64,000 nt of DNA from IMG/VR virus record IMGVR_UViG_3300031257_000001, positions 40,327 to 104,326 of that record. One strand, written 5' to 3'. The notes under the pieces are model-generated. The model saw only the letters and a list, made by a program, of their open reading frames with translations. It ran no database searches and was not told where the DNA came from. Below are positions 12,140 through 58,038 of the stretch, piece by piece. This stretch comes from a virus. The first letter of the stretch is position 1; each line of letters opens with the position of its first letter. Made by a program: the position numbers and the translations under genes.

Positions 12140-13128
12140 TGGGCGTCATCCGCGAAACATACCTGGCCACTGTCTCGACCAACGATGACCCCGAGAAGCG
12201 CGGACGCATCAAGGTGCTGTGCACGCAACTGATGGGAAGTGAGGATGAGGAATGCCCTGTTTGGGTGGATCCCATCTTCGATTGGGGCTGGTTCGTCATC
12301 CCGGACCCGGGAGAGATTGTCGAAGTGGAGGTGTCCACTGGCTCGACCGAGGACGAGCAACTGGGCCAATTCTCCATCGACAATCTCGACATCCGGTGGC
12401 GTCAAACTCGTGAGTATGGCAACGAGGAAGCTGAAGAGGACAGCTTGAAGCGCCCCATTCCGGAGGACTTCACATCCACCAACTATGGCAAGCGTCGTGG
12501 CTTCGCCACGCCGTTGGGCCATCTCATCATGTTCGATGACACACCCGATGATCCCAAGCTGTCGATCTCGTGGATCGATGGCGACAGCGATGACCCAACC
12601 TACGCGTTCTTAACGTTTGACAAGCAGGGCGTGAAGCTCGCTTCCAAGCCGCATGGCGACGATAAGGTTCAGCACTGCCTGTTCTTCAACCACGAAACTG
12701 GTGAGATTTCAATCATCGATTCGACCGGCAACTCTATCAGCACGATGCCGAACGGGATCAAGATTGTAGCTGCCAAGGATGGCGCGAGCGACGCCAACAT
12801 CGAAGTCAAGAATGACGGCGTGATCCAGATCCTGGGCGGGAAGCAGGTGACGGTGTCGTCTGGATCCATTCAATTGGACGCCGGGCTTCCAGGAGCTGTG
12901 CTGCTTGGATCTGGTCCTGCTACTGCTATCGTTGATCAAGCTATCAAAGGGACTTCGTTCCATGCACTGCTGACTCCGTTGTGGACTGCTATGGCAGCAG
13001 GCGCAGCAGGCGGTGGTTTGATTACGCCTGCACAGGTAATGGCATGGTGCAACGCAGTGGCAGTAGCCGCTGTCACCGCAGTGGCAGGGTTGGCTACCAC
13101 CCTAAGCACTGATGTGAAGTTGAAATGA
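12139..13128 (+). CDS. Baseplate spike / central puncturing protein (gp5/gpV-like)
   Basis: 329 residues from the ATG that overlaps the hub stop codon. Residues 1-90 form the gp5-type OB fold (GVIRETYLATVSTNDDPEKRG followed by CPVWVDPIF and PDPGEIVEVEV). Residues about 120-270 look like the repetitive beta-stalk (GHLIMFDDT, ISIIDSTGNSI, IQILGGKQVTVSSG). No lysozyme domain is present. The C-terminus is Ala-rich and hydrophobic. Forms the trimeric spike on the hub. Confidence 0.82.
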   Translation: MGVIRETYLATVSTNDDPEKRGRIKVLCTQLMGSEDEECPVWVDPIFDWGWFVIPDPGEIVEVEVSTGSTEDEQLGQFSIDNLDIRWRQTREYGNEEAEEDSLKRPIPEDFTSTNYGKRRGFATPLGHLIMFDDTPDDPKLSISWIDGDSDDPTYAFLTFDKQGVKLASKPHGDDKVQHCLFFNHETGEISIIDSTGNSISTMPNGIKIVAAKDGASDANIEVKNDGVIQILGGKQVTVSSGSIQLDAGLPGAVLLGSGPATAIVDQAIKGTSFHALLTPLWTAMAAGAAGGGLITPAQVMAWCNAVAVAAVTAVAGLATTLSTDVKLK

Positions 13129-13454
13129 GATCACGTTGTGCATTCCCACCATTCCCACCAACCATCAGCCTCCCCATCCCCATCCCAGGACTCCCGCAGA
13201 TCCCTGCGATCCCTACGCTACCCATCCCGCCATTCGGTGTGGCAGTCAAGTTCCCACCAACCATCAGCCTCCCCATCCCCATCCCAGGACTCCCGCAGAT
13301 CCCTGCGATCCCTACGCTACCCATCCCGCCATTCGGTGTGGCAGTCAAGTTCCCACCAACCATCAGCCTCCCCATCCCCATCCCAGGACTCCCGCAGATC
13401 CCTGCGATCCCTACGCTACCATTCTTCCCCCCATTGTGCCCCATCGATCCTTGA
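13125..13454 (+). CDS. Proline-rich repeat protein between spike and baseplate wedge genes
   Basis: 109 residues, start overlapping the spike stop. Apart from the ends it is three copies of a 33-residue unit of the type PPTISLPIPIPGLPQIPAIP plus TLPIPPFGVAVKF. Pro and Ile/Leu alternate, consistent with an extended polyproline-like rod. The third copy ends in PFFPPLCPID. Its place after the spike gene suggests a spike-tip or hub accessory, comparable in position to PAAR-type tip proteins, though it has no PAAR motif. The function is unknown. Confidence 0.7.
   Translation: MRSRCAFPPFPPTISLPIPIPGLPQIPAIPTLPIPPFGVAVKFPPTISLPIPIPGLPQIPAIPTLPIPPFGVAVKFPPTISLPIPIPGLPQIPAIPTLPFFPPLCPIDP
13152..13425 (+). 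repeat. Three tandem 99-bp direct repeats inside the proline-rich gene
   Basis: Copies begin at 13152, 13251 and 13350, each with TTCCCACCAACCATCAGCC. The first two are full 99-base units; the third keeps about 75 bases before diverging to the gene end. I see no mismatches between copies, so the duplication is recent or kept uniform by recombination. The unit is 33 codons, so copy changes keep frame. Confidence 0.93.
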
Positions 13455-13463
13455 GGTTGTGCC

Positions 13464-13865
13464 ATGCCGACAGGACTAGCTGTACCAGGACGAACCAACA
13501 CCGGCGGCGGAATGCTCGTGAGCCGGACGGAAGACCAGGATCAGAGCATCATCAAGCTCGCCCTCGGTGATGACTTCAGCGACAACCCATTCCAGGTGGG
13601 AATCGGCCTTGGGATTGGGCATGTCTTTGGTGTGAACGATCCAGCGTTACGTGCATTGATCATGTCCAGGCTCATCCCCATGTTCAAGCGATTTGAAGCA
13701 TTGAAGCGTTTCAAGCTCCGGACGGAAACGCTTCAATGGGAGGAAGGTGAGGAAGGTGGGCCCGTCCTCAGCTTCAAGTACGTCAACTTGGAGACGGATG
13801 AAGAGCGCGACTTCAGGCGTAGCCTCCGCCAGGCGAGCGGAGCCATTAACCCAGGGACGGTGTAG
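13464..13865 (+). CDS. Baseplate wedge protein (gp25/gpW-like)
   Basis: 133 residues. The pattern NPFQVGIGLGIGHVFGVND, ALRALIMSRLIPMFKRFEALKRF and a closing VNLETDEERDFRRSLRQ strand-helix matches the gp25/GPW lysozyme-related fold found in all contractile tails (usual length 110-140). It should sit at the inner wedge joining sheath to baseplate. SD GAGG lies upstream. Followed 3 bases later by the gpJ-like gene. Confidence 0.78.
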   Translation: MPTGLAVPGRTNTGGGMLVSRTEDQDQSIIKLALGDDFSDNPFQVGIGLGIGHVFGVNDPALRALIMSRLIPMFKRFEALKRFKLRTETLQWEEGEEGGPVLSFKYVNLETDEERDFRRSLRQASGAINPGTV

Positions 13866-24100: not shown

Positions 24101-26632
24101 GTGATCAAGCTACGCTTGGACAACCGCTGGGTCTACATCACCGGCGCTCCGCGCTCCGTCATCCGCGAGTTGGAGTCCATCACGAGCTATCGTGTGGCGG
24201 GCTTCATGTTCGCGCCGTCCTTCAAGAGAGGGCACTGGGACGGCAAGGAGCACCTGCTGCGCTTCAGCAGCAAGCGCGGATACCACGCGCCCCGAGGACT
24301 CGTCACCGACATCGCCCGGGCTCTTCGGGCTGAGGGGCATCGGTACACGGTCGAGCATGTCCACGCTCCGCTGCCGGAGCGGCGCAAGCTGGTGTGGGAG
24401 TCCAGCGTGGTGATGCGAGGATACCAGGATGAGGCGATCAACGCCCTGCTGGCACCTCCTGTGCGCGGCAGTGGGGTGTTGAAGATGCCCATCAGGAGCG
24501 GCAAGACCAAGATGGCCGCCCGGCTCATCCGCAGGATCGGCCAGGCCACACTGTTCGTGGTCCCGTCCAAGTCACTCCTGTACCAGACCCGGGAAGCCCT
24601 CGCTGAGTGCTTCCCGTTGGAGACCATCGGCCTCATCGGCGACTCCGAGCACGATGAGCAGTTCATCACAGTCGCCTCCATCCAGACATTGGCGATGTGG
24701 CGCGAGGGCGGCCGCTGGAAGATGATGCGGCCTGCCAAGAAGCAGGAAAGCCGCGTTGCGTGGCTGGAGGAGCACGGCTGGGAGCCGTCGGGCGAGCTGT
24801 GGCGCAAAGGTCGCATCAAGCCCGTGGCGATCGTCAAGGCCATCGAGCGTGAGGCGAGCGACCGCGAGGCAGAGCGGAAGGCCACTGTCAAGGCCAAGTA
24901 CAAGGGTCTGCTCAAGGCGTTCCCTCTGCTCATCCTCGATGAATGCTTTATTGCAGGAACGTTAGTTGACGGGAGACCTATCGAGAGCATTGCTGTCGGT
25001 GACATGGTTGCTGCATTCGACAACAACGGCACCACATCCCAACGACGAGTAACCCGGACATTCAAAACGGTTCCATCCAGCCTTGTTCGCATCCGATTCA
25101 ACGACGGAAGGACCCTGACTTGCACGCCAGGGCATCCCTTCTTCACCGCTTGCGGTTGGGTGAAGGCTTGCGAGCTGAGGCCTGGATCGGATATGGTGTT
25201 AAGCACCAATGCTAAAGTGCACGACCTGCGGACGGGAATTGGACTCGGAGAACGTTCCTGCTCATCGTTTGGAACGATGGAAGAAAACCGGAAGAATCTA
25301 CTGCAAGACAGCTTGCGGCCGTGCATACACCGGGAAGGTGACCCGAAACTCACCCCACCTACGCTCCCAGGAGGTGCGGGAGGCTTCATCGAGGCGAATG
25401 AAGGAGAGCAACCCGATGCGCTCGGAGCATGTGCGTGCCAAAATGGCAGCTTCGCTGCGTGCTCGTGGCCATTCTCCCAATTGGACCAAGGGCGGGAACG
25501 GACGGCCACTACCAATTGCACAAGTGGTCCTTGCAGCTGCTTTGGGATGGGAGACAGAATGCGTTGTGAAGACGGGGAATCCGTCACGTGGAGTGGATCG
25601 AATGGTCGGGATTTCGTCTTGTTACAAGCTGGATGTTGCCAACTCGACGCTGAAGCTCGGAATCGAGCTAGACGGCCCCTCGCACCACACTCCGAAAGCA
25701 CGTGTGTTGGACAAAAAGAAAACCGACTTTCTGAGTGGGATGGGGTGGACGGTGTTGAGGTTCTCCAACCGGGAAGTGACAAACGATTTGGAGGGTTGTG
25801 TCCGGACGGTTTTGTGTACAATCTCGAAGTTGAAGGACTCCACACGTACATAGCCAACGGCTTGGCCGTCCACAACTGTCACCACTACCGGGGGACCGGC
25901 GAGTGGTACAAGGTCCCGCATGAGTTCGACAGCAGGTTCAAGGTCGGCCTGTCGGCCACCGCCTATCTGGACAACAGCGTCGAGCAGGAACGCGGGATCA
26001 TCTGGCTGAAGGCGACGTGCGGACCGATCCGCTGCGACATCCCGATGAGCCGTCTCATCGCGGACGGATTCTTGATGAAGCAGCACGTCAGGATGTTCCG
26101 CGTGACCACCCCCAACCTCAATGGCCGGAAGTGGAGCGCGACGATGCGCCGGCAAGCCATCGTGACCAACCGCCGGCGCAACGCGATAATCGTCATGTGC
26201 GCTGCCAAGTACGCCGCAGAAGGACGCCGCATCGCCATCATCGCCCGGCTCCACGAACACATCGGGATCCTGTGCGAGGCGATGGATGAGGCCGGGCTGG
26301 AGTATCGCACCATCACCGGGCATGACGACCAAGAAGCGCGCGAGGACATCGTTGACGGGTTGGTCAGAGGGGACTACCATGTAATCATTGGAACCGTCAT
26401 CGGCGAGGGCGTGGACATCCCACAAATGGAGGTGGTCATCAATGCGGAAGGCGGCAGGGATACCAAGTCCACTGTGCAAAGGCAACGCAATCTAACCATC
26501 AACAAGGGCAAAAGGCAGGCGGTATTGGTTGACTTTTTGGACGAGACAAACGACCATCTGCGAAAGCACTCCGAGGCCCGGTTGGAGGTGTACCGCAGCG
26601 AGCCAATGTTCCAGATTGACCTGGTGGGCTAG
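24101..26632 (+). CDS. SF2 DNA helicase (UvsW-type) interrupted by an intein
   Basis: 843-residue precursor. Exteins of 281 and 251 residues join to a 532-residue helicase: N-terminal UvsW-like domain, motif I KMPIRSGKTKM (about 128), LFVVPSKSLLYQT (Ia), motif II LLILDE|CHHY, motif III GLSATAY, and a C-terminal RecA-like domain with VINAEGGRDTKSTVQRQRN. The intein sits between E and C of the DECH box, so the unspliced protein cannot hydrolyse ATP. Start is GTG 24101 with no SD. A -10-like TATCTT (24089-24094) just upstream would give an almost leaderless mRNA. Role: branch migration and replication/recombination repair. Confidence 0.85.
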   Translation: MIKLRLDNRWVYITGAPRSVIRELESITSYRVAGFMFAPSFKRGHWDGKEHLLRFSSKRGYHAPRGLVTDIARALRAEGHRYTVEHVHAPLPERRKLVWESSVVMRGYQDEAINALLAPPVRGSGVLKMPIRSGKTKMAARLIRRIGQATLFVVPSKSLLYQTREALAECFPLETIGLIGDSEHDEQFITVASIQTLAMWREGGRWKMMRPAKKQESRVAWLEEHGWEPSGELWRKGRIKPVAIVKAIEREASDREAERKATVKAKYKGLLKAFPLLILDECFIAGTLVDGRPIESIAVGDMVAAFDNNGTTSQRRVTRTFKTVPSSLVRIRFNDGRTLTCTPGHPFFTACGWVKACELRPGSDMVLSTNAKVHDLRTGIGLGERSCSSFGTMEENRKNLLQDSLRPCIHREGDPKLTPPTLPGGAGGFIEANEGEQPDALGACACQNGSFAACSWPFSQLDQGRERTATTNCTSGPCSCFGMGDRMRCEDGESVTWSGSNGRDFVLLQAGCCQLDAEARNRARRPLAPHSESTCVGQKENRLSEWDGVDGVEVLQPGSDKRFGGLCPDGFVYNLEVEGLHTYIANGLAVHNCHHYRGTGEWYKVPHEFDSRFKVGLSATAYLDNSVEQERGIIWLKATCGPIRCDIPMSRLIADGFLMKQHVRMFRVTTPNLNGRKWSATMRRQAIVTNRRRNAIIVMCAAKYAAEGRRIAIIARLHEHIGILCEAMDEAGLEYRTITGHDDQEAREDIVDGLVRGDYHVIIGTVIGEGVDIPQMEVVINAEGGRDTKSTVQRQRNLTINKGKRQAVLVDFLDETNDHLRKHSEARLEVYRSEPMFQIDLVG
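24944..25876 (+). mobile_element. Intein in the helicase DECH box, with an out-of-frame endonuclease
   Basis: 311 residues in the helicase frame. Splicing residues are Cys1 (CFIAGTLV), block B TCTPGHPF, and the C-terminal VYNLEVEGLHTYIANG then AVHN followed by Cys+1. Only about the first 90 and last 30 residues look like an intein in this frame. The 200 or so residues between are Cys/Gly/Ser-rich and read like an out-of-frame translation, while the +1 frame there encodes a recognisable endonuclease (25209-25853). The helicase frame nevertheless has no stop. Confidence 0.88.
25209..25853 (+). CDS. DUF559/VSR-like homing endonuclease in the +1 frame inside the helicase intein
   Basis: 214 residues from ATG 25209 (no clear SD). 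Starts with a zinc-type CTTC...YCKTAC region, followed by a basic NUMOD-like stretch (SSRRMKESNPMRSEHVRAKM) and a C-terminal nuclease domain of DUF559/very-short-patch-repair type: KLGIELDGPSHHTPKARVLD, KKKTDFLSGMGWTVLRFSN, DLEGC. The Glu-x-Asp-Gly and Lys residues fit the PD-(D/E)XK-like core. The ORF runs past the intein block F in a different frame. Translation could be by internal start, or the frame may reflect paired frameshifts. Confidence 0.75.
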   Translation: MLKCTTCGRELDSENVPAHRLERWKKTGRIYCKTACGRAYTGKVTRNSPHLRSQEVREASSRRMKESNPMRSEHVRAKMAASLRARGHSPNWTKGGNGRPLPIAQVVLAAALGWETECVVKTGNPSRGVDRMVGISSCYKLDVANSTLKLGIELDGPSHHTPKARVLDKKKTDFLSGMGWTVLRFSNREVTNDLEGCVRTVLCTISKLKDSTRT

Positions 26633-26778: not shown

Positions 26779-28335
26779 ATGAAGTCGAAAGCGCACCCAC
26801 GTGAGTATCAGGGCGACGGCCCGGTTTCAATCCCAACTGCCTACTGCGAGCTGAGCAAGCGCGCGTTCGCGGTCTGGGTCAGGTTGATGGCTGAGTCTCC
26901 CGAGGTTCTGCTGACAGGGAGGCATCGCCTCGCAGAGTTGTTGAGCTACTCACAGCGCCGGTTCAGCGAGGTGCTTCTGGAGCTTGTGCGCAAGGGGTAC
27001 GTGGGCGTGATCCCTCCCGAGCGAGTGGGCCTTGTCACCCAAATTGTGTTGCGGCGCCGTGCAAAGATCAACCAGAGGACGGGGAACTGGTTCAGGCTGG
27101 GAAACTTGCTGCTGCAAGGCGACCACGAGTGCATGTGCAATCAACAAGAAACTGGCCCAAAGTTTACACAGACCCAAAGTTTACACAGACCGAAACCAAA
27201 GTTTAGTTGGGCTGATCCAAACTTTAATTGGACCCATGGCATAAAACCGGGAGAAGTGGTGTGTAAAAAGGTACCAAGGGAAACCAGTTCTTGTGTAGAG
27301 GGTGGATCTTGCAGTCACAAAAGTGGCATTTGTCCAGACAAAAGTGGCAATCTCACAAACTGGGTCCAACTAAACTTTGGATTAGTCTGTGTAAACTTTG
27401 GAAGTCCCAGAGTCGTTGGGAGTGTGGTTCTTGTGGAGTCCATAGATTATTGGAATACGCAAGGCGTCAAAAAGCTTCCCGACGGAAACTCTTGCCACAT
27501 GGCAGCCATGATGCTTTCTGGTGTTAAAAAACGCCGTTTCGTGGCTGGCACGAAAACACAAACAAAACGAACCACCTTAGAGGTAGATAGGCTTAGAGAA
27601 GCTAAGGAGAAGGAGAAAGAGAAACGTAGGCTCTCTACCCGAGCGAAGCGAGGGTTCTCAAAGCAGCGACGTGGCAAGGGTGTTGATTGGGCAAAGATAG
27701 ACCTGATGGGGGACCCTGTCGTGAGCTTCGAGCCCGGCGACCGCGAGCGCCCTCGTGTTCTTGAGGTTCTGTCCCGGAGGGCTCGCGACCCGGAGCGAGT
27801 CAGGCTCGTGGCAAAGCTGGAACGCGAGTTCTGCCGCATCTACACCCGGTACAGGCGACAGGCGGAGCGCGACCTCACCGGCTCGACTGATTACAATGAG
27901 GTGTGGGAACAGGAACGGAAGTTGGCCGCCCGGGCAGCCATCCTCTGCATCCAGAAGGGAACAACGCCAACCAGGCTCATCCGCTACTGGCACAAGGCCA
28001 TCCGCGACTTCACAGACTTGAAGATTCCAACACTGCGCTTCCTGGCCAGCCCGGCGAACGTGGACCGGGCCGCCTGCGCAGAGATCAATATCGATGACGC
28101 CAAGGACAAGCCTCCGGCCGGGAACAGCTTCAGCGCGGTCTGTGGTCTCGATGTACGATTGAGGCCGGAGCTTGAACGCGCCGGGTTCGACACCAGGCCG
28201 TACAACGACCGCTTCATGCTGGGAATCCAACACAATGCGATGGCGATAGCGCAGGGCAAAGACATCTTCATGGCGAAGGGTCGCGTGAGGGATATGGCGG
28301 TGTTCGCAGCGGAGAATCTGTTCAATGAGGAGTGA
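26779..28335 (+). CDS. Replication initiator-like protein with internal origin
   Basis: 518 residues. N-terminal winged-helix-like domain (about 15-95: SKRAFAVWVRLM, RLAELLSYSQRRFSEVLLELVRKGYVGV) as in phage O-type and DnaT-like initiators. Residues about 125-260 are low-similarity linker, encoded by an AT-richer iteron cluster (27156-27401). The C-terminal part (about 320-518) is helical and charged and may bind the loader. It is followed by loader, DnaB-like helicase and primase genes, the same order logic as lambda O-P. The embedded repeats support origin binding by this protein. Confidence 0.65.
   Translation: MKSKAHPREYQGDGPVSIPTAYCELSKRAFAVWVRLMAESPEVLLTGRHRLAELLSYSQRRFSEVLLELVRKGYVGVIPPERVGLVTQIVLRRRAKINQRTGNWFRLGNLLLQGDHECMCNQQETGPKFTQTQSLHRPKPKFSWADPNFNWTHGIKPGEVVCKKVPRETSSCVEGGSCSHKSGICPDKSGNLTNWVQLNFGLVCVNFGSPRVVGSVVLVESIDYWNTQGVKKLPDGNSCHMAAMMLSGVKKRRFVAGTKTQTKRTTLEVDRLREAKEKEKEKRRLSTRAKRGFSKQRRGKGVDWAKIDLMGDPVVSFEPGDRERPRVLEVLSRRARDPERVRLVAKLEREFCRIYTRYRRQAERDLTGSTDYNEVWEQERKLAARAAILCIQKGTTPTRLIRYWHKAIRDFTDLKIPTLRFLASPANVDRAACAEINIDDAKDKPPAGNSFSAVCGLDVRLRPELERAGFDTRPYNDRFMLGIQHNAMAIAQGKDIFMAKGRVRDMAVFAAENLFNEE
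27156..27401 (+). other. Candidate replication origin: iterons and inverted iterons inside the initiator gene
   Basis: CCAAAGTTTACACAGAC occurs twice in direct tandem with a 17-base period (27157-27173, 27174-27190), then CCAAAGTTTAGTTGG (27196-27210) and a variant CCAAACTTTAATTGG (27217-27231). About 140 bases on, CCAACTAAACTTTGG (27366-27380) and GTCTGTGTAAACTTTGG (27385-27401) are exact reverse complements of the third and first iterons. Between them ACAAAAGTGGCA appears twice 21 bases apart (27317, 27338). The layout, inside the initiator gene and AT-rich, resembles lambda ori within O. Confidence 0.72.
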
Positions 28336-28999
28336 GCGTGAGGTCGATGCGTTCCGCGCCGGCCTCATCGAACGCTTCGGGGATGATGGCGACAAGCGCG
28401 TGGCGTACTACACAGCGTGCTACGAGGCTTGTATTCCACGGACGTTCTGGGATGTCGCCGGTGCCGATGTGACCTACAACATCGATGCGTTCAAGGGGGT
28501 CATCCTGCGATACACGTCCAAGTGGAAGCGGGCCCTTCGCCACGGATACTCGATGCTGCTCGTTGGCGACAACGGCACTGGCAAGACCATGTTCGTGTCG
28601 TTCGTCCTCACACAGATGATCAAGCGTGGCGTGACAGTCTACTACATGACGTTGGCCCAGTTGGACATCGACATCAAGCGTGGGTTCAAGGACGGCAACG
28701 CTGAGGCCCGGCTTGAGCTCCTGCTCGGGGCCGACTTCCTGGCCATCGATGAGATGGGAAAGGAGCATTTCAAGGCGGACAGCTTCCTGACCACGCGGTT
28801 GGAGCTGCTACTCAAGCGCAGGTACGATGACGGCGAGCCCACGGTTCTGGCTTCCAACTTGGGGTGCCAACGGCTGGTCGAGATGTACGGCCCGACCATC
28901 GAGAGTATGCTGGACGGGAAGTATGCCACGTGCCAGTTGGAATCTGGAGACTTCCGCAAGAGCGTCCGCACCCGGATGAAGAAGGATCTTGGCTTGTGA
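28325..28999 (+). CDS. DnaC/IstB-like helicase loader ATPase
   Basis: 224 residues, overlapping the initiator by 11 bases. Walker A LLVGDNGTGKTMF (about residue 78), Walker B DFLAIDEMGKE (about 138), sensor-like TVLASNL near 178 and a basic end (FRKSVRTRMKKD), the DnaC/DnaI loader layout. It should load the following DnaB-like helicase onto the origin. The next gene starts within its stop (GTGA). Confidence 0.82.
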   Translation: MRSEREVDAFRAGLIERFGDDGDKRVAYYTACYEACIPRTFWDVAGADVTYNIDAFKGVILRYTSKWKRALRHGYSMLLVGDNGTGKTMFVSFVLTQMIKRGVTVYYMTLAQLDIDIKRGFKDGNAEARLELLLGADFLAIDEMGKEHFKADSFLTTRLELLLKRRYDDGEPTVLASNLGCQRLVEMYGPTIESMLDGKYATCQLESGDFRKSVRTRMKKDLGL

Positions 29000-30399
29000 C
29001 TGCCAAGTTTGACCTGGCCTTTGAGACGCAGATCCTGTCTCAGGCGCTCCGCGATGACGTGTTCCTGAAGAAGGCGGTGCGAATCTGCGACCAGCACCAC
29101 TTCGGCACCAAAGAGCATGCGTGGATCTGGGGCGTCATCGCGGACACGTGGCGCAAGTACCACGAGCGGGCGAGCGGGAAGCTCATCCTGTCAAAGGCGA
29201 AAGTAGACCACCCCGACCCTGACAAACGCAAGCCATTCCTGGCGTTGGCGCGGAAGCTGGTTCGGGTCAAGCCATCCCACCCCAAAGCGGCCCTCGATGA
29301 GTTGAACGGCTTCGTGCGTGAGGTGAATCTGCACCTCGCTCTGGAGAAGTCAGCAGATGCGTTGTCGAAGGGCGAACTGGAAGCTGCGGAGCGGGCCGTG
29401 TCCAAGGTCGCCAGGATGTCCGCCCGGGAGCGCAAGTACACTCTGGTGCGCTGGATTGAGGAATTCGAGGCCCGCCAGGACGCTCGCAGGTATGAGGCCG
29501 AGCACCCCGGCGAATTCAAGGTCATCCCGTCAGGTTGGAAGACACTGGACAAGGCGCTGGGTGGCGGCTCCCGAATCGGAGAACTGAACCTCATCATGGG
29601 GACGACCGGCCGAGGCAAGAGCGTCGGAGCCACCAATGTGGCGATGGCCGCGGTCAAGCGTCTCCACCCCACGTTGTACATTGCCACAGAGATGCCTGCC
29701 AGGCAGATCGCCCAACGGCAGGACACCATCTGGACTGGGATGCGATATGACCAGTTCAAGACGTGGGACTTCAGGCCGTCCGAACGGCGTGCGATGACGA
29801 GGCACCTGAAGCGGGTTGCCAAACTCTGGAGCAACATGTTCCACATCGCTAGCTTTCCTGTTCGTTCGGCCGACATCACAGACGTCCGGCAGCTTCTGGC
29901 TGACCTACTGGAGGATCACGATTTCAGGCCGGAGATCATCGTGGTTGACTCCGGCGACCATCTGCGCTCATCCGACAAGACGTTGGACAGCTACCGTCTG
30001 CAGCAAGCCGATGTGTACTGGGAGCTCAAGAGGCTGGGTGAGGAAGATGGCTATGTGGTCTGGTCCACAGTCCAGGCAGGCAAGGAGTATGCTGTCACGA
30101 CGGCCACGAGCGAGGCGACCTCTGAGAGCTACGACAAGGCGCGCATCTCGGACATGATCATCAGCCTCAACGACCCTGACGCCGGGCGCCGTCGCAAGAG
30201 GATTGAGTTGGATGTTGACGCCGATGAAGAGGATGATGTTGCCGAGGTGACGGGGCCGGAGGTGGGCGACGATGAGGCGAAGCGCCTGGAGCTGTTCCTG
30301 GCCAAGTACAGGGACGGCCTGTCCAAACTCAAGATCCCGCTGAATGCTGACTTCGCTCGGATGAAGCTCAGCGAGGTAGGTGACGATGATGAGGATTAG
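28996..30399 (+). CDS. DnaB-like replicative helicase
   Basis: 467 residues from the GTG that overlaps the loader stop. N-terminal helical domain (1-150), then an SF4 RecA-like motor: PSGWKTLDKALGGGSRIGEL, Walker A IMGTTGRGKSVGATN (about 200), TLYIATEMP, Walker B EIIVVDSGDHL (about 320). Slightly different from host DnaB in its short N-domain and in an acidic, non-conserved insert near 410-435 (DVDADEEDDVAE). Acts 5'-3' on the lagging strand with the primase encoded next. Confidence 0.8.
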   Translation: MTAKFDLAFETQILSQALRDDVFLKKAVRICDQHHFGTKEHAWIWGVIADTWRKYHERASGKLILSKAKVDHPDPDKRKPFLALARKLVRVKPSHPKAALDELNGFVREVNLHLALEKSADALSKGELEAAERAVSKVARMSARERKYTLVRWIEEFEARQDARRYEAEHPGEFKVIPSGWKTLDKALGGGSRIGELNLIMGTTGRGKSVGATNVAMAAVKRLHPTLYIATEMPARQIAQRQDTIWTGMRYDQFKTWDFRPSERRAMTRHLKRVAKLWSNMFHIASFPVRSADITDVRQLLADLLEDHDFRPEIIVVDSGDHLRSSDKTLDSYRLQQADVYWELKRLGEEDGYVVWSTVQAGKEYAVTTATSEATSESYDKARISDMIISLNDPDAGRRRKRIELDVDADEEDDVAEVTGPEVGDDEAKRLELFLAKYRDGLSKLKIPLNADFARMKLSEVGDDDED

Positions 30400-30414: not shown

Positions 30415-31431
30415 TTGGGCTTTGACATTGAGGGGTATGCAGAATCCAGATTGAACCGGTTCCGACGTTGTGGCGGACGATCCGGGAACGAGGCGACAGC
30501 GCTGTGCCCGCGTTGTGACAAGGTGTCCAAGTTCTATTTGAATCTGGAGACAGGCAGCTTCGTGTGCTTCTCGTGCGACTTCCGCGGCCGCTCCATCGTG
30601 TGGCTCGTCGCTGAAGTTGAAGGGTTCACTACGGCGGAGGCCCGTGCCTTCATCTTCCGCCAGACAGTCGCCATCCGCCGGCGCGACTCGCGTGCCGTGC
30701 TCCGCGACCGCATCGCGGCCCTCCGGCCTCACACCATCAAGGATGACTCGCCGGAGCCGGAGGACTTCGACTTGCCCAAGTCGTTCAGGCCGGTGTGGAA
30801 GGATGGTCGTTGGGACTTCCCCATCTGGCTCAAAGAGAAGCGCGGGATCAAGAGCAAGACCGCTCGCGCATGGGGGCTCGGATACTGCCGTTTTGGCAAG
30901 TACGCTGGGCGCCTGATCATCCCCATAGAGTGCCCCAACGGACGGAGCTTCACAGCCCGGGACATGACGGATGAGCAAGAGCCCAAGTATTTGAACCCGT
31001 GGGGTGCTGATCACCGCCGGCTCCTCATTGGATGGGGCCTCGTTCCGCTGGTGTCAGACTTGGTGATCTGCGAAGGGCCACTGGACGCAGTGAAGCTCTG
31101 GCAGCACAGGATCCCGGCGCTAGCCCTCGGTGGCAAGGAGCTACATGACGAGCAGATCCAGTTGCTCAGGACGTTGTCACAGTCACAGGCGATCACGATC
31201 ATGTTGGATCCTGAAGAGCGCGAAGCGCCGTACAGGCTTGCCGAGAGCCTTCACACAGAGTTTGACAGCATATTCATCGCGACGCTGCCAGATGGGACGG
31301 ACCCGGGCGACTCAACGTTTGACCAAGCCCACACAGCGCTCGATGACGCCGTCCAGTGGAAGGGGGACCGCACACCAAGGTTGCTGGCCAAAGTTCGGAG
31401 TGCTGGAGATGCTGTTTCTTCCAGGCGTTGA
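30415..31431 (+). CDS. DnaG-type primase with zinc ribbon and TOPRIM domain
   Basis: 338 residues from TTG 30415, chosen for GAAGGAG 7 bases upstream. N-terminal zinc ribbon (CPRC ... CFSC, about 31-55), central region with IWLKEKRGIKSKTARAWGLGY and GRLIIPIECPNG, then TOPRIM motifs VICEGPLDAVKLW (about 220) and ITIMLDPEE (about 262). Shorter than host DnaG because no helicase-binding C-domain is present. Makes primers for lagging strand synthesis. Confidence 0.82.
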   Translation: MGFDIEGYAESRLNRFRRCGGRSGNEATALCPRCDKVSKFYLNLETGSFVCFSCDFRGRSIVWLVAEVEGFTTAEARAFIFRQTVAIRRRDSRAVLRDRIAALRPHTIKDDSPEPEDFDLPKSFRPVWKDGRWDFPIWLKEKRGIKSKTARAWGLGYCRFGKYAGRLIIPIECPNGRSFTARDMTDEQEPKYLNPWGADHRRLLIGWGLVPLVSDLVICEGPLDAVKLWQHRIPALALGGKELHDEQIQLLRTLSQSQAITIMLDPEEREAPYRLAESLHTEFDSIFIATLPDGTDPGDSTFDQAHTALDDAVQWKGDRTPRLLAKVRSAGDAVSSRR

Positions 31432-31539: not shown

Positions 31540-32724
31540 ATGAGCGTACGCAACGAAGCGCTAGATGACAAGGGCCGCGAGCGAGTTCAGTGCCTGCGCT
31601 GCAAGGCCAACGGCGTGGTGTCGTACTATCACCGTCTTCAGAAGCACCTACAGACATCGCACGGCATGTCGCTGGACGAGTATGAAGTCCACCACCCCGG
31701 AGCGCCGGTGAAGTCATCGACTGCGGAGCGCGCAGACCAGCGCGCCAAGAAGGCAAAGGCCGACATCCATCCGAAGCCCACCGCGGACGACACGCACGCT
31801 GACGACGGCGAGGACCCAGTGTACACGTTCGGTTGCGCGCACATCGTGGGACGGGTTGACCTCGATGGTGATGACAAGTCACACGTCCCACATCATGACG
31901 AAGGGTGGAATGTCGGAGCGTCTGAGCAAGCCAGCCTTGAGGCGCTTGCCCTCGGAATCGAGACCAACCAGAATGTTCTCATCGTGGGGCCTCCTGGCGT
32001 CGGCAAGAGTACGCTTGCCCGGGAGCTGGCCGCCATCGCCAACGCTCCGCTGCGTTACTTGCCCATCAACGGCGAGATGCGCACAGATGATCTCATGGGC
32101 GGCGACCAGCTGCTGGTAGACAAGGAGACAGGCCAGACTGTCACCCAGAACGTGGATGGGCCGTTGCCGGAGGCCGGTGAGCGTGGCCATTGGGTCCTGT
32201 TCGATGAGTTCGACAGCCTCCCGAGCCACGTGGGATTCATCCTGCACGGAGTGCTGGAGGCGGAACGGAAGCTCACGCGCGCCAACGGGAATCGGGTGGA
32301 GTTCAGCGAGCACTTCCGCGTCATCGCCACTGCCAACACCCTCGGGTTGGGCGATGACACAGGACAGTTCGCTGGGACGGCGCCGATGAACCGCGCGTTG
32401 CTCGACCGGTTCGGCATCGTCATCAGGGTGGGCTTCCCGGAGCAGGAGGATGAGATTGAGATGCTTGTCAGGAAGGCCGGCTTGCGTCGCAACGTGGCGG
32501 AGAACATGGTCAAGATCGCGCGCCAAGTTCGTGAGGCCGTTGCCAACGATACCACCAATGCCGACCTCAGTCCGCGCCGGCTTTTGATGTGGGCTACCAC
32601 CACCAAGAAGATGGGCGGGAACGTGGTCAAAGCGGCCCGCTACACTATCATCAACCGCCTGTCCAAAGAGGATGGCGACTTTGTCTCAGGTCTCATTCAG
32701 CGCACGTTCGGGGGGACGCCATGA
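31540..32724 (+). CDS. MoxR/CobS-like AAA+ ATPase with N-terminal zinc-finger
   Basis: 394 residues. N-terminal Cys-Cys-His-His unit (CLRCKANG ... YYHRLQKHLQTSH, about 17-45) like MucR/Ros or C2H2 fingers, then a charged linker. AAA+ core: Walker A GPPGVGKSTLARELA (about 149), Walker B WVLFDEFDSLP (about 217), sensor IATANTLGLGD. CobS/MoxR ATPases work with a VWA partner, encoded next. In phages such pairs are known, but the client is unknown. Leader CAACCTGGAGATCAG is shared with the next gene. Confidence 0.82.
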   Translation: MSVRNEALDDKGRERVQCLRCKANGVVSYYHRLQKHLQTSHGMSLDEYEVHHPGAPVKSSTAERADQRAKKAKADIHPKPTADDTHADDGEDPVYTFGCAHIVGRVDLDGDDKSHVPHHDEGWNVGASEQASLEALALGIETNQNVLIVGPPGVGKSTLARELAAIANAPLRYLPINGEMRTDDLMGGDQLLVDKETGQTVTQNVDGPLPEAGERGHWVLFDEFDSLPSHVGFILHGVLEAERKLTRANGNRVEFSEHFRVIATANTLGLGDDTGQFAGTAPMNRALLDRFGIVIRVGFPEQEDEIEMLVRKAGLRRNVAENMVKIARQVREAVANDTTNADLSPRRLLMWATTTKKMGGNVVKAARYTIINRLSKEDGDFVSGLIQRTFGGTP

Positions 32725-32752
32725 GGCTCCTGTTCAACTTCCACAGTCTGAA

Positions 32753-32810
32753 GAAAGTTCCAACTGTGCCATCGAAAGTTCTAGCCCTCTCATCAAAAAC
32801 GCGGTAGATG
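32753..32810 (+). promoter_or_regulatory. Promoter-like element with two AAAGTTC boxes before the VWA gene
   Basis: GAAAGTTC at 32753-32760 and again at 32774-32781, 21 bases apart, then TAGCCC as a -35-like hexamer (32782-32787) and TAGATG about 17 bases on (32805-32810). It aligns with the better elements at 31451 and 61931 but the -10 is weak. Likely a regulated member of the same promoter class. Confidence 0.42.
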
Positions 32811-32855
32811 TAGAGGGTGGCGTTGGCGAGACGCCACAACCTGGAGATCAGCAGA

Positions 32856-34943
32856 ATGAAAACAGCGAAGCGCTACCAGATTCCAGCAGAACTGCGCGGT
32901 CTGGTCGGCCCCTTCACCAAGATTGCGCGCGCGTTGAGTCGCAACCACCGCATCGAGGTCATCCCGTCCGGGACCCGGTGCGCGACCGATTGCCGCGGCC
33001 GCATCTGGATTCCGTTCAACGCCGACAAGCTCACCCCGGGCCTGCGCCAGAAGATGAATGGGATGCTCGACCACGAGACGGCGCACGTGGCTGAAGAGCG
33101 CGAGGCTCGCGAAGCCGGCCAACTCACCGCCCATGAGATCATGCACTCGGAGCGGAACAAGACCGTCAAGATGCTGATCAACGTGTTCGAGGACATCAGG
33201 ATTGAGCGCAAATGGGCTGAGCGCTACCCTGGAATGGCACAGAACCTCAGCGCCCTCAACGAGCAAACGGTGGAGCTGTTCGAGCGTCGCCATGGCTCTG
33301 GCGGGAACGCTTGGCACCAGGTTGGTTGCGCTATCATCTGCGCCGCGCGCGGACTGGGATGTGGTTGGCTCAAGCCTGAGCTTCAGCCGTACTTTGAGCG
33401 TTGCGAACAGTTCGTGGAGCGTTGCCCCGAGATGGTCTGGCCGGCGGATGCGCAACGACTCGCACAGGAAGCCCATGCAGAGTTGCTAACGCTGGCCGAA
33501 GAACAGAAGCGCCAGGCTGAAGAGGAACGCAAGCGACGAGAACACGAGGATGATGACGAGGGTGACGAGGAGCCCGAGGGCGATGATGAGTCCGAGGGTG
33601 ACGATGAGTCCGAGGGTGACGATGAGTCCGAGGGCGATGATGAGTCCGAGGGTGACGAGGACGATGACGATGGCGGCTCGTCCAGCGAGGATGACGACGC
33701 TGGTGGGGATGGTAACGAGCCTGGACCCTCGGATGATGACGATGAGGACGATGCAGACGATGGCAGCGAGGATGAGCCTGATGGTAGCGGTGATGGCGCT
33801 GGCGAGGGCCTGGGCGAGCTAGATGACGAGGACGGCGAGCCCGAAGATGATGGCGAGGCGGAGGCTGATGGCGAGGCGGAGGCTGATGGTGAAGGCGATG
33901 AGGGCGACATCGATCCTGACGACATGGCCGCCGGCGCCGATGAGATTCTGGAGTCCGATGCTGACGATGAAGATCTGATTGGCGCCATGCGCGACGACAT
34001 AGCAGAGCAGACGGACGTGGAGGCCAGCGACGGCGCCCACTACATCCCGCACCCCGCCCTGACCGACATGGACGGGTACGCCACCGAGGGCGAGATTGTT
34101 CGCAGGGGCGATGAGAAGACAGCCAGGGAGGCCCGTGATGAGGTGAGAGAGCAGGTCAGCACGCTCCGAGCCAAGCAGCTTGCCTACCTTCAGACGGTCA
34201 CCCGGACGAAGCGCCGTTGCGCACTTCGAGCCGGACGGCTGGATCGCAAGGCGCTGACCAAGGCGCGCATGGGTTCTGACCAGGTGTTTACCGACACCCG
34301 CAAAAACAGAGACTTGGACACAGCCATCGAGGTTTTGGTGGACATGTCTGGCTCGATGGGTCTGAATACACACCACACTTGTGCTGCGTACTACGCAATG
34401 CGCTGTGCGGTCGCCCTCGCAGAAGCGTGGGAAGGGCTGAGCATCCCTTGTGAGTTCACCGGCTTCTGGAACATCTCGCGCTACCCACCGCCTGATGAGC
34501 GGTTCGTGTGTCGAGGCGCCCTGCGCTACTTCATGATCAAAGGTTGGGATGAGAAGGTGTCCAAGACGCTCCCGAGATTCGGCGCCATCAAAGGGAAGGG
34601 CGACAACACAGATGGCGAGGCTGTGCTCCATGCGGCTCGTCGCCTTGCCTCACGCCGCGAGAAGCGCAAGATCCTGGTGGTCATCTCCGACGGCTTCCCG
34701 GCCGCTGCCAGGACCGACTCTGAACAGCTCAACGATCACCTCCGCGAAGTGGTCAAGATGATCACCTCATCAGGCATCGAGGTTCTGGGGATTGGCGCTG
34801 GCACCGACGCGCCCCGCCACTTCTACAACCAGGACACCGGAGCCAGGAATGTTGTAATCAGGGACATGAACTTGCTGGCGATCAGCGTGTTCAGGGCCAT
34901 GAAGGAGATGCTGGCAGCGCACGAGGGGAGGGCCGCGGCATGA
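32856..34943 (+). CDS. CobT-like VWA-domain protein with long acidic linker
   Basis: 695 residues from ATG 32856, picked because CCTGGAGATCAGCAG precedes it. The N-terminal domain (1-215) includes a HEXXH-like DHETAHVAEE near residue 70. A roughly 150-residue Asp/Glu/Ser/Gly linker follows. The C-terminal VWA domain holds a MIDAS motif VDMSGSMGLN (about 495) and later ISDGFP and GIGAGTDAPR. CobT-type subunits partner the CobS/MoxR ATPase just upstream to insert metal or remodel a client. There is no cobalamin gene here. Confidence 0.75.
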   Translation: MKTAKRYQIPAELRGLVGPFTKIARALSRNHRIEVIPSGTRCATDCRGRIWIPFNADKLTPGLRQKMNGMLDHETAHVAEEREAREAGQLTAHEIMHSERNKTVKMLINVFEDIRIERKWAERYPGMAQNLSALNEQTVELFERRHGSGGNAWHQVGCAIICAARGLGCGWLKPELQPYFERCEQFVERCPEMVWPADAQRLAQEAHAELLTLAEEQKRQAEEERKRREHEDDDEGDEEPEGDDESEGDDESEGDDESEGDDESEGDEDDDDGGSSSEDDDAGGDGNEPGPSDDDDEDDADDGSEDEPDGSGDGAGEGLGELDDEDGEPEDDGEAEADGEAEADGEGDEGDIDPDDMAAGADEILESDADDEDLIGAMRDDIAEQTDVEASDGAHYIPHPALTDMDGYATEGEIVRRGDEKTAREARDEVREQVSTLRAKQLAYLQTVTRTKRRCALRAGRLDRKALTKARMGSDQVFTDTRKNRDLDTAIEVLVDMSGSMGLNTHHTCAAYYAMRCAVALAEAWEGLSIPCEFTGFWNISRYPPPDERFVCRGALRYFMIKGWDEKVSKTLPRFGAIKGKGDNTDGEAVLHAARRLASRREKRKILVVISDGFPAAARTDSEQLNDHLREVVKMITSSGIEVLGIGAGTDAPRHFYNQDTGARNVVIRDMNLLAISVFRAMKEMLAAHEGRAAA
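33585..33656 (+). repeat. Four 18-bp repeats encoding DESEGD in the acidic linker
   Basis: Units of GATGAGTCCGAGGGTGAC at 33585, 33603, 33621 and 33639, the third with two synonymous changes. The repeat keeps the frame and lengthens the acidic linker between the two CobT-like domains. Slippage could vary copy number. Confidence 0.88.
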
Positions 34944-37899: not shown

Positions 37900-38902
37900 T
37901 TGGACCAGAGGCAAACACCCGTGCGGGTGTGAGATGGACATGCGGCTGAAGTGCGTGAAGCACTGCGGTGGCCACGGAATTCCGCCGGATCAACCCGCAA
38001 GTGATGCGTTCGGCGTGATGTGGGATGAGCAATCCGGTCAGCAACGCGAGTTGGGCTTGGATCCGGAGCATTTGGATGATGTAGAGCGCGGCCGAGTCAT
38101 CACCGACATCGTGGCCCAGGCACATGAAGAGGTGTCTGAGTTAGGTCGGCTCAGTTCCGCTTACAAGCGCCATCTCCTGTCTCGACCTCGAACGGACCCG
38201 GCCATGGTCGCTGAGGAAGTGGCAGACGTGCTCAAGTGCGCCATCGCGGCCGCCCAAACGTTCGGCCTCACCTCGTTGGACGTGGTGGAGGCTTTCTCGC
38301 GCAAGACAATGACAGTCTCGGAGCGGGCCCGGCAAGAGCGTGTCCGGCTTGAACAAGAGACGCCAATCCTGTGTTTCGACTTGGACGATGTCATCTGTGA
38401 CTTGTCGCCATGGCGGCAGGAGCTTGACGGCGGGATTGACGTGGATGCCCCGCCGGCGGACAAGCTCGCCTCCGCCGAACGTCTCAAGGAACAGTTCTAT
38501 GAGGGCGGACGATTCCGTGAGATGGAACCAGTTCCTGGCGCCAGAGAGGCGTTGGGGCGGTTCACCTCGGAAGGCTTCCACATCATCATCATGACGGCCC
38601 GTCCTCAGTGGCAGTACAAGCGGCTGTACGGCGACACGGTTGAGTGGCTGCTGGAACACGGGATCCCGTTCCACCGGATCATGTTCAACAAGGACAAGGT
38701 GGAAGCGGTGTACCAACACCTGGTTCCGGGCTGGCCAATGTTCTTCGTGGAGGACCACGAACGAAACATCAAGGCGTTGGCTTCAGTGGGGATCCATGTA
38801 CTTGTGTATAATCAGAAGCACAACGAAGGAATCCAGGACACCGAGAACACCACGCGCGTGTACGATTGGCGTGAGATTGAAAGGATTGTGTTGGGGACAT
38901 GA
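37892..38902 (+). CDS. MazG-like pyrophosphohydrolase fused to a HAD 5'(3')-nucleotidase
   Basis: 336 residues from TTG 37892, kept so that the zinc-like HPCGCEMDMRLKCVKHC is included. Residues about 65-150 match MazG-like NTP pyrophosphatases (AHEEVSELGR, VAEEVADVLKCAIAAAQTFG with the ExxE...ExxD set). Residues about 155-336 are a HAD domain: DLDDVICD (DxD nucleophile), IIIMTARPQWQ, FNKDKVEAVY, FFVEDHERN, as in NT5C-type deoxynucleotidases. The fusion could degrade a particular dNTP to dNMP to nucleoside, to bias the pool. Confidence 0.78.
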   Translation: MTDWTRGKHPCGCEMDMRLKCVKHCGGHGIPPDQPASDAFGVMWDEQSGQQRELGLDPEHLDDVERGRVITDIVAQAHEEVSELGRLSSAYKRHLLSRPRTDPAMVAEEVADVLKCAIAAAQTFGLTSLDVVEAFSRKTMTVSERARQERVRLEQETPILCFDLDDVICDLSPWRQELDGGIDVDAPPADKLASAERLKEQFYEGGRFREMEPVPGAREALGRFTSEGFHIIIMTARPQWQYKRLYGDTVEWLLEHGIPFHRIMFNKDKVEAVYQHLVPGWPMFFVEDHERNIKALASVGIHVLVYNQKHNEGIQDTENTTRVYDWREIERIVLGT

Positions 38903-40029
38903 CAAGCTACTTGATGAGGACGCTCGACCGATATCCAATCCAGTTCGCCTCCGGCGACGGCTCGTGGTTGGTCACTCCGGATGACGAGAGCTATCTGGAC
39001 TGGTTCACAGACGTGGGGACCGCTTCATTGGGCTACGGATCGCAGGAGGCACGGACGGCGATGGGGCGGATGGTCAGCAGCAGAATCCCATTCCACACGC
39101 CCAACTTGTTCGGGTGCCCAGAGCGCGAGCGGGCCGCGGAGCGCCTGTGCAAGGCGACTGGGATGGAAAGGGCATTCTTCTGTAACAGCGGAGCTGAATC
39201 CGTTGAGGCAGCCATCAAGCTCGCCCGTCTCAACACCCACAACAAGCTGGTCGCAGCGGTTGTGGGCTCGTTCCACGGCAGAACCTATGGGGCGCTGGCA
39301 TCCGGCGACGGCGGGAAGCACCACTATGAAGGGTTCGGACCGCTGCCAGGGATGTTCGTACATTGGGAGCCGCCCGAGATGCCTCCGCCTGAAGTTGGGA
39401 TCGTCATCATTGCTCCCATCTTCGGAAACAACGACGTCCAAGTGTACGGCGCATGGTTGAAGAGGCTTCAACGTTGGTGCCAACAGGTCAACATCCTGCT
39501 CATCTTCGATGAGGTCCAGACAGGCTCTTGCCGGGCCTCCGGAACCATGAGTTATTCGCACCACATCGGAGTGCTCCCTGACATCCTCTGCTTGGCTAAG
39601 GGTGTGGCCATGGGAGCGCCTGTCGGGGTCACCCTATCACGCAACGGGTTGGACTTCAGCCCCGGAAGCCACTTCAGCACGTTTGGCGGTGGACCGCTGT
39701 CAGCGGTGATGGTGAACGCGATGATCGACTGGTCCGAGAAGCACCAGCAGACCGTCGGGACCGTTGGGCGCTTCATCCGCAGGCGGTTGAAGGAGCGTAA
39801 ATGGGCCAAGAATGTACGTGGCGAGGGGATGCTCATCGCGTTTGATTGGGATGGCGATTGCTTGGGATTGGCAGCCGCCGCCTTTGAGGAGCGCCTGCTC
39901 ATCGGGGCGTTTCGCCGGGGCCCGGGCCCGATCAAGATCACACCGCCGTTGAACATCGTTCCGGCAGATATCAAGTTCGGGTTTGAAGCGCTTGATCGTG
40001 CTGTGGCGAGGTCAGAGGGTGCTTCCTGA
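38899..40029 (+). CDS. Class III PLP-dependent aminotransferase
   Basis: 376 residues, ATGA overlap with the previous gene. Class III (ornithine/GABA/acetylornithine type) features: FCNSGAESVEAAIKLAR, GSFHGRTYGALAS, PLP-binding Asp in LIFDEVQTGSCR, and the Schiff-base Lys in LCLAKGVAMGAPVGV, followed by HFSTFGGGPLS. Rare in phages. Donor and acceptor cannot be told. In this cluster it might amminate an aldehyde or keto group used to decorate a pyrimidine. Somewhat shorter than typical (400-450). Confidence 0.85.
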   Translation: MTSYLMRTLDRYPIQFASGDGSWLVTPDDESYLDWFTDVGTASLGYGSQEARTAMGRMVSSRIPFHTPNLFGCPERERAAERLCKATGMERAFFCNSGAESVEAAIKLARLNTHNKLVAAVVGSFHGRTYGALASGDGGKHHYEGFGPLPGMFVHWEPPEMPPPEVGIVIIAPIFGNNDVQVYGAWLKRLQRWCQQVNILLIFDEVQTGSCRASGTMSYSHHIGVLPDILCLAKGVAMGAPVGVTLSRNGLDFSPGSHFSTFGGGPLSAVMVNAMIDWSEKHQQTVGTVGRFIRRRLKERKWAKNVRGEGMLIAFDWDGDCLGLAAAAFEERLLIGAFRRGPGPIKITPPLNIVPADIKFGFEALDRAVARSEGAS

Positions 40030-41637: not shown

Positions 41638-42035
41638 AGGAGCTCAGGAATTGGGCGCGGGGCGAGGACATCGCCGGGCTGCCGGAGCAGTCTGTGCGGA
41701 CTTCGCCATCCCAACGAGAACACCCCGGGCGAGTCAAGATGCTGGAGCGTTTGGAACAGCTGAAGCTCCAAGCGCGGACCGCCGGCGGACAGCAGACGGG
41801 GATGTACAAGATCAGCACGGGCGGCGACGATGCTTTGATCAAGTTCGGGAAGCACGCCGGGAAGGCGTTGTCAGTGATCATGGATGAGGATCCGACCTAT
41901 CTGGCGTGGATGCTTCGTGATGACGATGACGGCCAGCCTCGGTTCGATTCCGTCTTGCTTGATGTGGTGAAGTATGTACAGGAATCCCACTGGAAGAAAG
42001 CGCGTGAAGAGCGCGCAAAGGGGCGCCGGAGATGA
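41625..42035 (+). CDS. Small protein with ExoX C-terminal-like FGK motif
   Basis: 136 residues. The C-terminal half contains IKFGKHAGKALSVIMDEDP and YLAWMLRDD, the F-G-K-x-x-G...P-x-Y-L-x-W motif seen in small domains beside exonucleases (ExoX C-terminal/DUF3820 group) and phage replisome proteins. The N-terminal half is basic linker. Overlaps the DnaE start (ATGA), so probably a polymerase accessory. Confidence 0.55.
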   Translation: MPTLKELRNWARGEDIAGLPEQSVRTSPSQREHPGRVKMLERLEQLKLQARTAGGQQTGMYKISTGGDDALIKFGKHAGKALSVIMDEDPTYLAWMLRDDDDGQPRFDSVLLDVVKYVQESHWKKAREERAKGRRR

Positions 42036-50211: not shown

Positions 50212-50771
50212 GCCGTGCCGCGCGACATAGCTCCACGACAGCGGAGCATCTGACCCCGTTGTACGTCGTGGACGCTGCTAGGGAGGCGTTGGGTGGTGTC
50301 ATCGATGTGGACCCAGCGACCACCTTGAGGGCGAACCGGGACATTGGAGCCCGGTTCACCTTCACGCGCGACGAAAGCGGCATGAAGAACCGTTGGCCCG
50401 GCCACGTGTTCTTGAACCCGCCTGGAGGGACAGTCCAGACACGGCTGACCAAATCCAGTTCGGTCCTGTGGTGGGCGAAGCTGATGTTGGAGTGGACCAG
50501 AGGGCGGACGACCGCCGGCGTGTTCATCTGCTTCAGCGTGGAGATACTCCAAGCGGCACAGAAGGTTCGGCAGGTTCCGCAGCCGTTGGACTTCCCGTTG
50601 TGTGTCCCGGATCACCGCATCCCGTTCGACACGCTCGACAGTCGCGGCCGGCGCGTGTCACAGAAGGATCCGACGCACGCCAACGTCATCATCTACCTGC
50701 CATCAAGAGATGATCCAGGGGCCCTCCGGTTCCGCCGCGCATTCAAGGACATTGGGAGAGTGAGAACGTGA
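50208..50771 (+). CDS. Dam-like phage DNA N6-adenine methyltransferase
   Basis: 187 residues, GTG overlapping the previous stop. Matches the phage Dam family (usual 170-190 residues): EHLTPLYVVDAAREALGG, DVDPAT, the catalytic VFLNPPGG (NPPx motif), and WWAKLMLEW. Probably protects phage DNA from restriction or marks it. No partner endonuclease is seen. Confidence 0.75.
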   Translation: MSRAARHSSTTAEHLTPLYVVDAAREALGGVIDVDPATTLRANRDIGARFTFTRDESGMKNRWPGHVFLNPPGGTVQTRLTKSSSVLWWAKLMLEWTRGRTTAGVFICFSVEILQAAQKVRQVPQPLDFPLCVPDHRIPFDTLDSRGRRVSQKDPTHANVIIYLPSRDDPGALRFRRAFKDIGRVRT

Positions 50772-57231: not shown

Positions 57232-58038
57232 ATGAGAGTCCAAGGATGGGACATCAGTTTGAACCACGGGGCCGTGACGGAGCTCACCGACGGCGAGCTG
57301 ACCGGCTTCTGGTACTACACCGATGTGGCCGGGAGCGCCCTCCGCTCCGCGAAGCACGGGTTCAGGCTGGTGCTCCCGCCCAAGGGTGACCGACAGAGCA
57401 AGGCGATGATCCGGCTGGCGTGGGTGGAGAAGTGGTTGGACAAGATCACCCTCGTTCCCCGCCGGCCCGACTGCGTTGGAATTGAGGATTATGCCATCAG
57501 GGCGGAACAGGGCGCCCACTACCTCGGTGAGGTGGGAGGGGTGGCCCGGCTCCTGTGCTGGTTCCGCGGTGTGCGCTTCCGTCTCCACGATCCGATCAGC
57601 GCCAAGATGTTCGTGACGCATGACGGGACCGCGCAGAAGGACCTGGTGGAAGAGTGCGTGTTGGGGCGCTGGGGCAAGGACTTCTCCAAGTACAACCCGC
57701 CGTCGCCCAAGAACCCGAAGCACAAGCAGAGCCGGCGGACCTCCGAGGACCTGGCAGATGCCTATGGGCTGGCCAAGCTCGTGGAGACGGAAGCGCACAT
57801 CAGGACCGGGGAACTCACGCTGAAGGGCCTGGCACATGACCAGGAGCGCAAGGTGTTCAACCGGGTGACCAAGACGTACCCCACGAGCTTGCTCGACCGA
57901 GACTGGATTCACAATCCGTCAGGCGGGTTCGGTTCCCCGGACGCAGTGAAGATTCGTGTGGCCCGTTCGCTTTCGCGGGCCGTGGATGTTGGAAACGTGA
58001 AGATGGAGCGCTTCTTGCGCAGATTGTTGGGAGAGTGA
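57232..58038 (+). CDS. RuvC-like Holliday junction resolvase
   Basis: 268 residues. RNase H-fold acidic residues: first Asp in QGWDISLNHGAV, Glu in DCVGIEDYAIRAEQGAHYLGE, last Asp in TSEDLADAYGLAKL (about 178). Longer than E. coli RuvC (173) with about 70 extra C-terminal residues. Would resolve branched DNA before packaging, together with UvsW, RecA and SbcCD homologues. Confidence 0.7.
   Translation: MRVQGWDISLNHGAVTELTDGELTGFWYYTDVAGSALRSAKHGFRLVLPPKGDRQSKAMIRLAWVEKWLDKITLVPRRPDCVGIEDYAIRAEQGAHYLGEVGGVARLLCWFRGVRFRLHDPISAKMFVTHDGTAQKDLVEECVLGRWGKDFSKYNPPSPKNPKHKQSRRTSEDLADAYGLAKLVETEAHIRTGELTLKGLAHDQERKVFNRVTKTYPTSLLDRDWIHNPSGGFGSPDAVKIRVARSLSRAVDVGNVKMERFLRRLLGE

Follow-up and report, generated by a model that had tools for sequence, protein, structure and literature searches.

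The window analysed here, a stretch of 64,000 nucleotides equivalent to positions 40,327 to 104,326 of the 104,326-bp IMG/VR record IMGVR_UViG_3300031257_000001, carries on its + strand an open reading frame of 518 amino acids (positions 26779..28335 of the window) which we assign as a replication initiator gene, its place and layout being common to 18 relatives. The encoded protein is divided into a predicted N-terminal winged-helix domain (amino acids 1-124; 26779..27150, confident over approximately amino acids 15-100), a linker that would bear the origin (27151..27663) and is read through in the window, and a C-terminal helical domain (27664..28335) kept in relatives and proposed to contact the loader or primosome. 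On the same strand, it is followed directly, here and in relatives, by a gene for a DnaC-like helicase loader (28325..28999; phrog_50, E 2e-23), and then by those for a DnaB-like replicative helicase (28996..30399; phrog_19, E 5e-56) and a DnaG-like primase with a Toprim domain (30415..31431; phrog_47, E 3e-42), as the first-pass annotation had stated. The helicase reading frame is listed from 28864, while the part conserved in relatives begins near 28996, the likely GTG start. Further products of this phage include a DNA polymerase, UvsX, a UvsW-like helicase and a tail sheath.

Several other genes of the window have peculiarities of their own. The UvsW-like helicase gene (24101-26632) contains an intein-like insert, with an intein splicing domain at about amino acids 293-368, and its product has 843 amino acids versus 472-488 for the counterparts at the related loci L006 and L007. 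The reading frame at 42032-48004 (1990 amino acids) has its DNA polymerase in the first ~800 residues and HNH-endonuclease matches at about residues 1100-1200, an arrangement suggestive of intein or homing inserts. In the UvsX-like recombinase frame (50768-52678), HNH-endonuclease matches at amino acids 227-314 precede the main recombinase match and may likewise mark an insert. Adjoining the replication genes, the region 31540-34943 encodes an ATPase matching the PHROG category 'porphyrin biosynthesis' and then a CobT-like protein.

The AlphaFold2 model of the N-domain has pLDDT above 90 over most of amino acids 20-95. Fold searches with it returned the plasmid initiator 4pt7 (Z 8.5) and a MarR-type winged helix (Z 9.1), and the model also matches viral and phage replication initiators in BFVD; the domain is predicted to be a winged helix, similar in fold to the replication initiators of plasmids and phages. 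At the level of sequence the protein stands apart. The whole 518-residue chain has no match in Pfam, PHROG or PDB, including the PHROG 'replication initiation O-like' families and, at E up to 1, RepA_N (PF06970), and the initiator protein or its DNA used as a direct query retrieved nothing from viral contigs, phage records, Pfam, PHROGs or PDB. The N-domains of 15 relatives gave a weak match to the PHROG 'DnaD-like helicase loader' in 11 cases, no RepA_N match, and a weak match (E 0.02) to the 'replication initiation O-like' families, each matched by one of the 15. The C-domain, formed by the last 223 residues, is modelled as helical (pLDDT 88.5). Its fold searches gave only noise among solved structures (best Z 3.7), which does not make the fold a new one, and a scan of bacterial genomes with it found no relative. 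Since this domain has no recognisable fold relative, its contact with the loader is a guess.

Six iterons lie within the linker. Exact-repeat search and a site matrix both place iteron A1, CCAAAGTTTACACAGAC, at 27157..27173, an identical A2 at 27174..27190 and iteron B, CCAAAGTTTAGTTGG (that is, CCAAAGTTTAGTTGGGC), at 27196..27212, where it forms the hyphenated dyad CCAA-N7-TTGG; a variant iteron C, CCAAACTTTAATTGG (that is, CCAAACTTTAATTGGAC), lies at 27217..27233 and is also scored by the matrix. These four sites are on the + strand. On the - strand, both methods identify an inverted B' (27364..27380) and an inverted A' (27385..27401), the latter an exact reverse complement of A1 and A2. The first-pass annotation had described iteron sets mirrored at this place: the exact and inverted copies are indeed present and far above chance, and the strand tally is corrected to four + and two -. 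Neighbouring sites follow each other at steps of 17, 22 and 21 bp in the left arm and 21 bp in the right arm, and the two arms are separated by 124-211 nt. Between them, at 27317-27349, two direct copies of ACAAAAGTGGCA stand 21 bp apart, possibly a second type of site.

Statistically, the array is singular in the record. The linker holds 23 direct and 32 inverted repeated 9-mers versus 1.0 and 0.8 expected, values that none of 500 shuffles reached in either class, while the parts of the gene on its two sides are at chance level in the shuffle test (throughout, the resolution of the p-values is limited by the 150 to 500 shuffles made). The 10-nt core CCAAAGTTTA has five exact copies in the 104,326 bp, every one of them at this locus, and the 500-bp segment at 27125 ranks first in the whole record for inverted 10-mer pairs. 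With a matrix built from five sites, the six sites score between 19.9 and 29.0 bits, the next best in the record reaching 15.4. The + strand iterons start in frames 0, 2, 0 and 0 of the reading frame and two further copies are antisense; such mixed frames and strands indicate that the constraint acts on the DNA and that the iterons are not peptide repeats, and neither the 17-bp tandem step nor the antisense copies can be explained by the protein sequence.

Other repeat-rich places in the record were considered as mixed iteron arrays and rejected. The segments at 13025, 49725 and 33525 have direct repeats only; the first of them (13025-13525) is the strongest direct-repeat segment of the record, with 231 repeated 10-mer pairs and no inverted ones, and probably encodes a repetitive protein. 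The second strongest inverted-repeat segment consists of a single exact 21-nt inverted pair (57570-57590 and 57779-57799, 188 nt apart) inside the coding frame 57232-58038.

The same sites could be read as operators, through which the winged-helix protein would shut off the replication operon from inside its own gene, the origin lying elsewhere. The predicted fold is equally close to MarR-type repressors, and the dyads of sites B and C are operator-like. However, the sites lie ~380-620 bp inside the gene, the record has no other comparable iteron array (its stronger direct-repeat segments are devoid of inverted copies), and six sites plus the hairpin described below, coupled to loader, helicase and primase genes in relatives, better fit an origin. 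We thus regard the operator explanation as unlikely.

In composition, the linker is AT-richer than its surroundings, as initially noted, with 46% GC versus 60% and 62% on its two sides. It shows no extreme AT-rich unwinding element, its best 50-bp segments being ~62% AT. A change of GC skew at the locus, which had been suggested as a check, is not seen: the skew climbs steadily along the whole record and makes no turn there.

To place the locus in a family context, relatives were collected through profiles and alignments of the loader, helicase and C-domain against viral contigs. This yielded 18 distinct related loci with both domains, several of them on ~105-kb contigs, plus two truncated ones; the near-duplicates L012 (of L011), L020 (of L019) and L071 (of L074) were left out of the count. 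The order is winged helix, linker, C-domain and then, in most, the loader, and linker GC is usually below that of the neighbouring parts. About half of the relatives have significant linker repeats, whose sequences differ between loci. In L009 there are four copies of CGGACTTTCCCAG at an exact spacing of 22 bp, in L010 two iterons at 23 bp, and in L006 CCAATC-type sites on both strands. L069, L072 and L074, fetched only after the hypothesis had been formed, have four iterons each, with a TTACC core and ~21-bp steps, arrays that none of 150 shuffles reached; these three are close kin, and the relatives in general are not independent samples. At the same place in all three (L069:3886-3920), just after the winged-helix domain and upstream of the iterons, there is also a conserved inverted repeat, GTTCTCG...CGAGAAC. 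The repeat tests found no significant iterons in the linkers of L011, L014, L016, L019, L021 and L022 (L018 and L073 lay outside these tests), and the repeats of L007 were not counted as clear iterons because their length, 15 bp, is a multiple of three and a peptide repeat is possible.

The linker had been called poorly constrained; among the relatives it evolves as DNA, with different iterons in different loci. The proposed likeness to the lambda origin with inverted iteron sets stands as regards layout. The inverted sets are a trait of the window, with mixed orientation also in L006 and L010, whereas in the relatives that are best resolved the arrays are simply direct, with four iterons each.

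These direct arrays at the same place also bear on whether the linker might instead be a segment that inverts or moves, with inverted repeats as its borders. In the window, ~124-211 bp are indeed flanked by inverted repeats, exact over 17 nt and imperfect over 41 nt, but they are internal clusters rather than simple ends, and the record has no second copy; this reading seems to us hardly credible.

The linker is also where the gene comes apart. In eight relatives (L006, L010, L016, L018, L019, L021, L044 and L073) stop codons in the linker part the winged helix from the C-domain; in L006 the N-domain frame has 19 stops. This is what would be expected of a linker that serves as DNA. Taken together, the predicted fold and the relatives support the initial proposal of an origin-like array inside a winged-helix initiator gene. 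The split genes, and the triloop hairpin, are elements that the first reading had missed.

This hairpin, ACCCGAGC GAA GCGAGGGT, is found at 27637..27655 (+ strand). It is built of a GCGAAGC mini-hairpin, tandem G-A mismatches and then an ACCC/GGGT stem, so that its pairing in the window requires two tandem G-A mismatches; the word GAGCGAAGCGAG within it occurs once in the 104-kb record. A melting temperature of 78 C is reported for the d(GCGAAGC) mini-hairpin, GNA being the known extra-stable type of DNA loop (PMC4686876). Papers on GCGAAGC at replication origins were looked for with no useful result. C(GNA)G triloop hairpins are present in 12 of 19 linkers, the strict form being absent from L006, L011, L015, L016, L018, L022 and L073. 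They are enriched 79-fold, with 14 in 10.9 kb of linker (one from a duplicate locus) versus 3 in 185 kb of flanks, a figure that is not a blind test, since the hairpins of the first set had been seen before the form was defined, and the later set was already in view when it was sharpened. The loci added later come nearest to a blind test: in each of L069, L072 and L074 a GNA triloop hairpin stands 53-56 bp ahead of the C-domain, while L073 has none and L071 repeats the sequence of L074. Scanning loop lengths from 3 to 12, three-base loops were the most enriched in linkers (8.9-fold). The stems differ in sequence almost everywhere with pairing kept, and between L069 and L072 one A-T pair is exchanged for G-C, a compensatory change.

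A hairpin so placed could act in the mRNA, on translation or decay of the C-terminal part, as an internal start or in attenuation, and be unrelated to replication. Its GNA loop mostly falls on the coding strand, and in many loci it lies 9-65 bp from the start of the C-domain. On the other hand, the loop is on the template strand in L010 and L021, the C(GNA)G triloop that recurs belongs to the extra-stable class of DNA mini-hairpins, and four-base loops are much less enriched in linkers than three-base loops. An intrinsic terminator was rejected because no T-run follows the hairpin in the window or in the relatives read. A role in the mRNA therefore appears rather improbable to us.

We give about the same weight to a second possibility: in place of a primase site, the hairpin could be a promoter at which a virion-type RNA polymerase starts, as happens in N4, either to transcribe or to activate the origin by transcription. 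In the early-promoter hairpins of N4, a sheared G-A pair closes a loop of three bases (PMC4496689), and our scan, applied to the first 8 kb of that phage, picked up two C(GGA)G hairpins. However, the hairpin is here concentrated in the linker instead of being spread across early genes, and no T7/N4-type RNA polymerase domain (PF00940) was found in six records, weak evidence given that the control search also matched nowhere.

In our interpretation, the locus is very probably a phage replication origin carried inside its own initiator gene, and the comparative sequence evidence supports its placement there. Mechanistically, the winged-helix domain would bind the iterons, probably as dimers, and the bound array would bend and melt the adjoining lower-GC DNA. 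The C-domain would then hand over to the DnaC-like loader, which in turn would load the phage DnaB-like helicase, a step proposed on the basis of gene order and of the lambda O-P and pSK41 Rep precedents. Through melting or supercoiling, a single-strand C(GNA)G hairpin of high stability may then come free on the downstream side of the iterons, and this, in the least certain step of the scheme, would most likely mark the start for the phage primase or another single-strand-specific factor. The observations beneath this scheme are the repeats, the DNA-level constraint, the conserved layout, the hairpin, whose stems vary with pairing kept, and the split genes. A more specific form of it is tentative, and we hold it to be possible though short of probable: a two-part origin of fast-evolving iterons and a C(GNA)G hairpin, conserved in shape and variable in sequence, that would act as the phage's own primase or primosome signal. 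Only the linker DNA would matter in such an origin, and the initiator gene would for that reason have repeatedly broken there into two proteins.

If correct, this predicts where the origin lies in a lineage of tailed, uncultivated phages of ~105 kb whose initiator is without a relative in the phage collection, and across the family it offers a data set of joint change in origin DNA and initiator. The hairpin, in turn, is a short candidate signal, open to test, by which a phage primase or polymerase might locate its starting point.

Among known systems, the early promoters of N4 share with the window the short stem and the three-base loop with a sheared G-A pair (PMC4496689), including the C(GGA)G form. 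They differ in starting the virion RNA polymerase, an enzyme not detected here by the search mentioned above, whose control matched nowhere. RSF1010, whose oriV also has iterons, is comparable by analogy, with an origin hairpin as a candidate single-strand primase signal. Its ssiA and ssiB hairpins are recognised as single-stranded DNA by its own primase RepB' (PMC4434180). Unlike the present hairpin, ssiA is a 40-nt element served by an archaeo-eukaryotic-type primase, whereas the primase here is DnaG-like and its link to the hairpin is putative.

The RepA_N plasmids, represented by staphylococcal pSK41 Rep, are closer in that the origin is central in rep. In pSK41, an N-domain of ~120 amino acids binds four mid-gene sites, a separate C-domain contacts primase, and the central part, encoded by the origin, is dispensable as a peptide (PMC5703833). 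The modelled N-domain of the window resembles the initiator structure 4pt7, although the protein has no RepA_N Pfam match and its C-domain no fold match in our searches. In contrast to pSK41, the linker is not translated through in eight relatives, and these natural gene splits at the origin mirror the pSK41 linker deletions, by which the peptide there was found dispensable (PMC5703833).

The closest plan is that of lambda, with ori in gene O. In both cases the initiator gene is just upstream of the loader gene (O and P in lambda), and the iterons are mid-gene, in the coding region between the DNA-binding domain and the C-domain; those of lambda are at 39034, 39054, 39078 and 39101 within O (38686-39585), and L009, L069, L072 and L074 have four as well. 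Sites B and C of the window have hyphenated dyad symmetry, as do the lambda iterons, to which O binds next to a high-AT block (PMC6022878). Unlike lambda, the window has iteron sets on both strands, a linker that is lower in GC than its flanks but shows no sharp high-AT block, a protein with no sequence match to O families and a phage that brings its own helicase and primase; the initiator gene is often split in relatives, and the C(GNA)G hairpin is an addition, our scan around lambda O having found none. The lambda-like plan of an origin within the initiator gene is thus known, and what is new here is probably the shape-conserved DNA hairpin that it gains, together with a gene that is often naturally cut at the origin.
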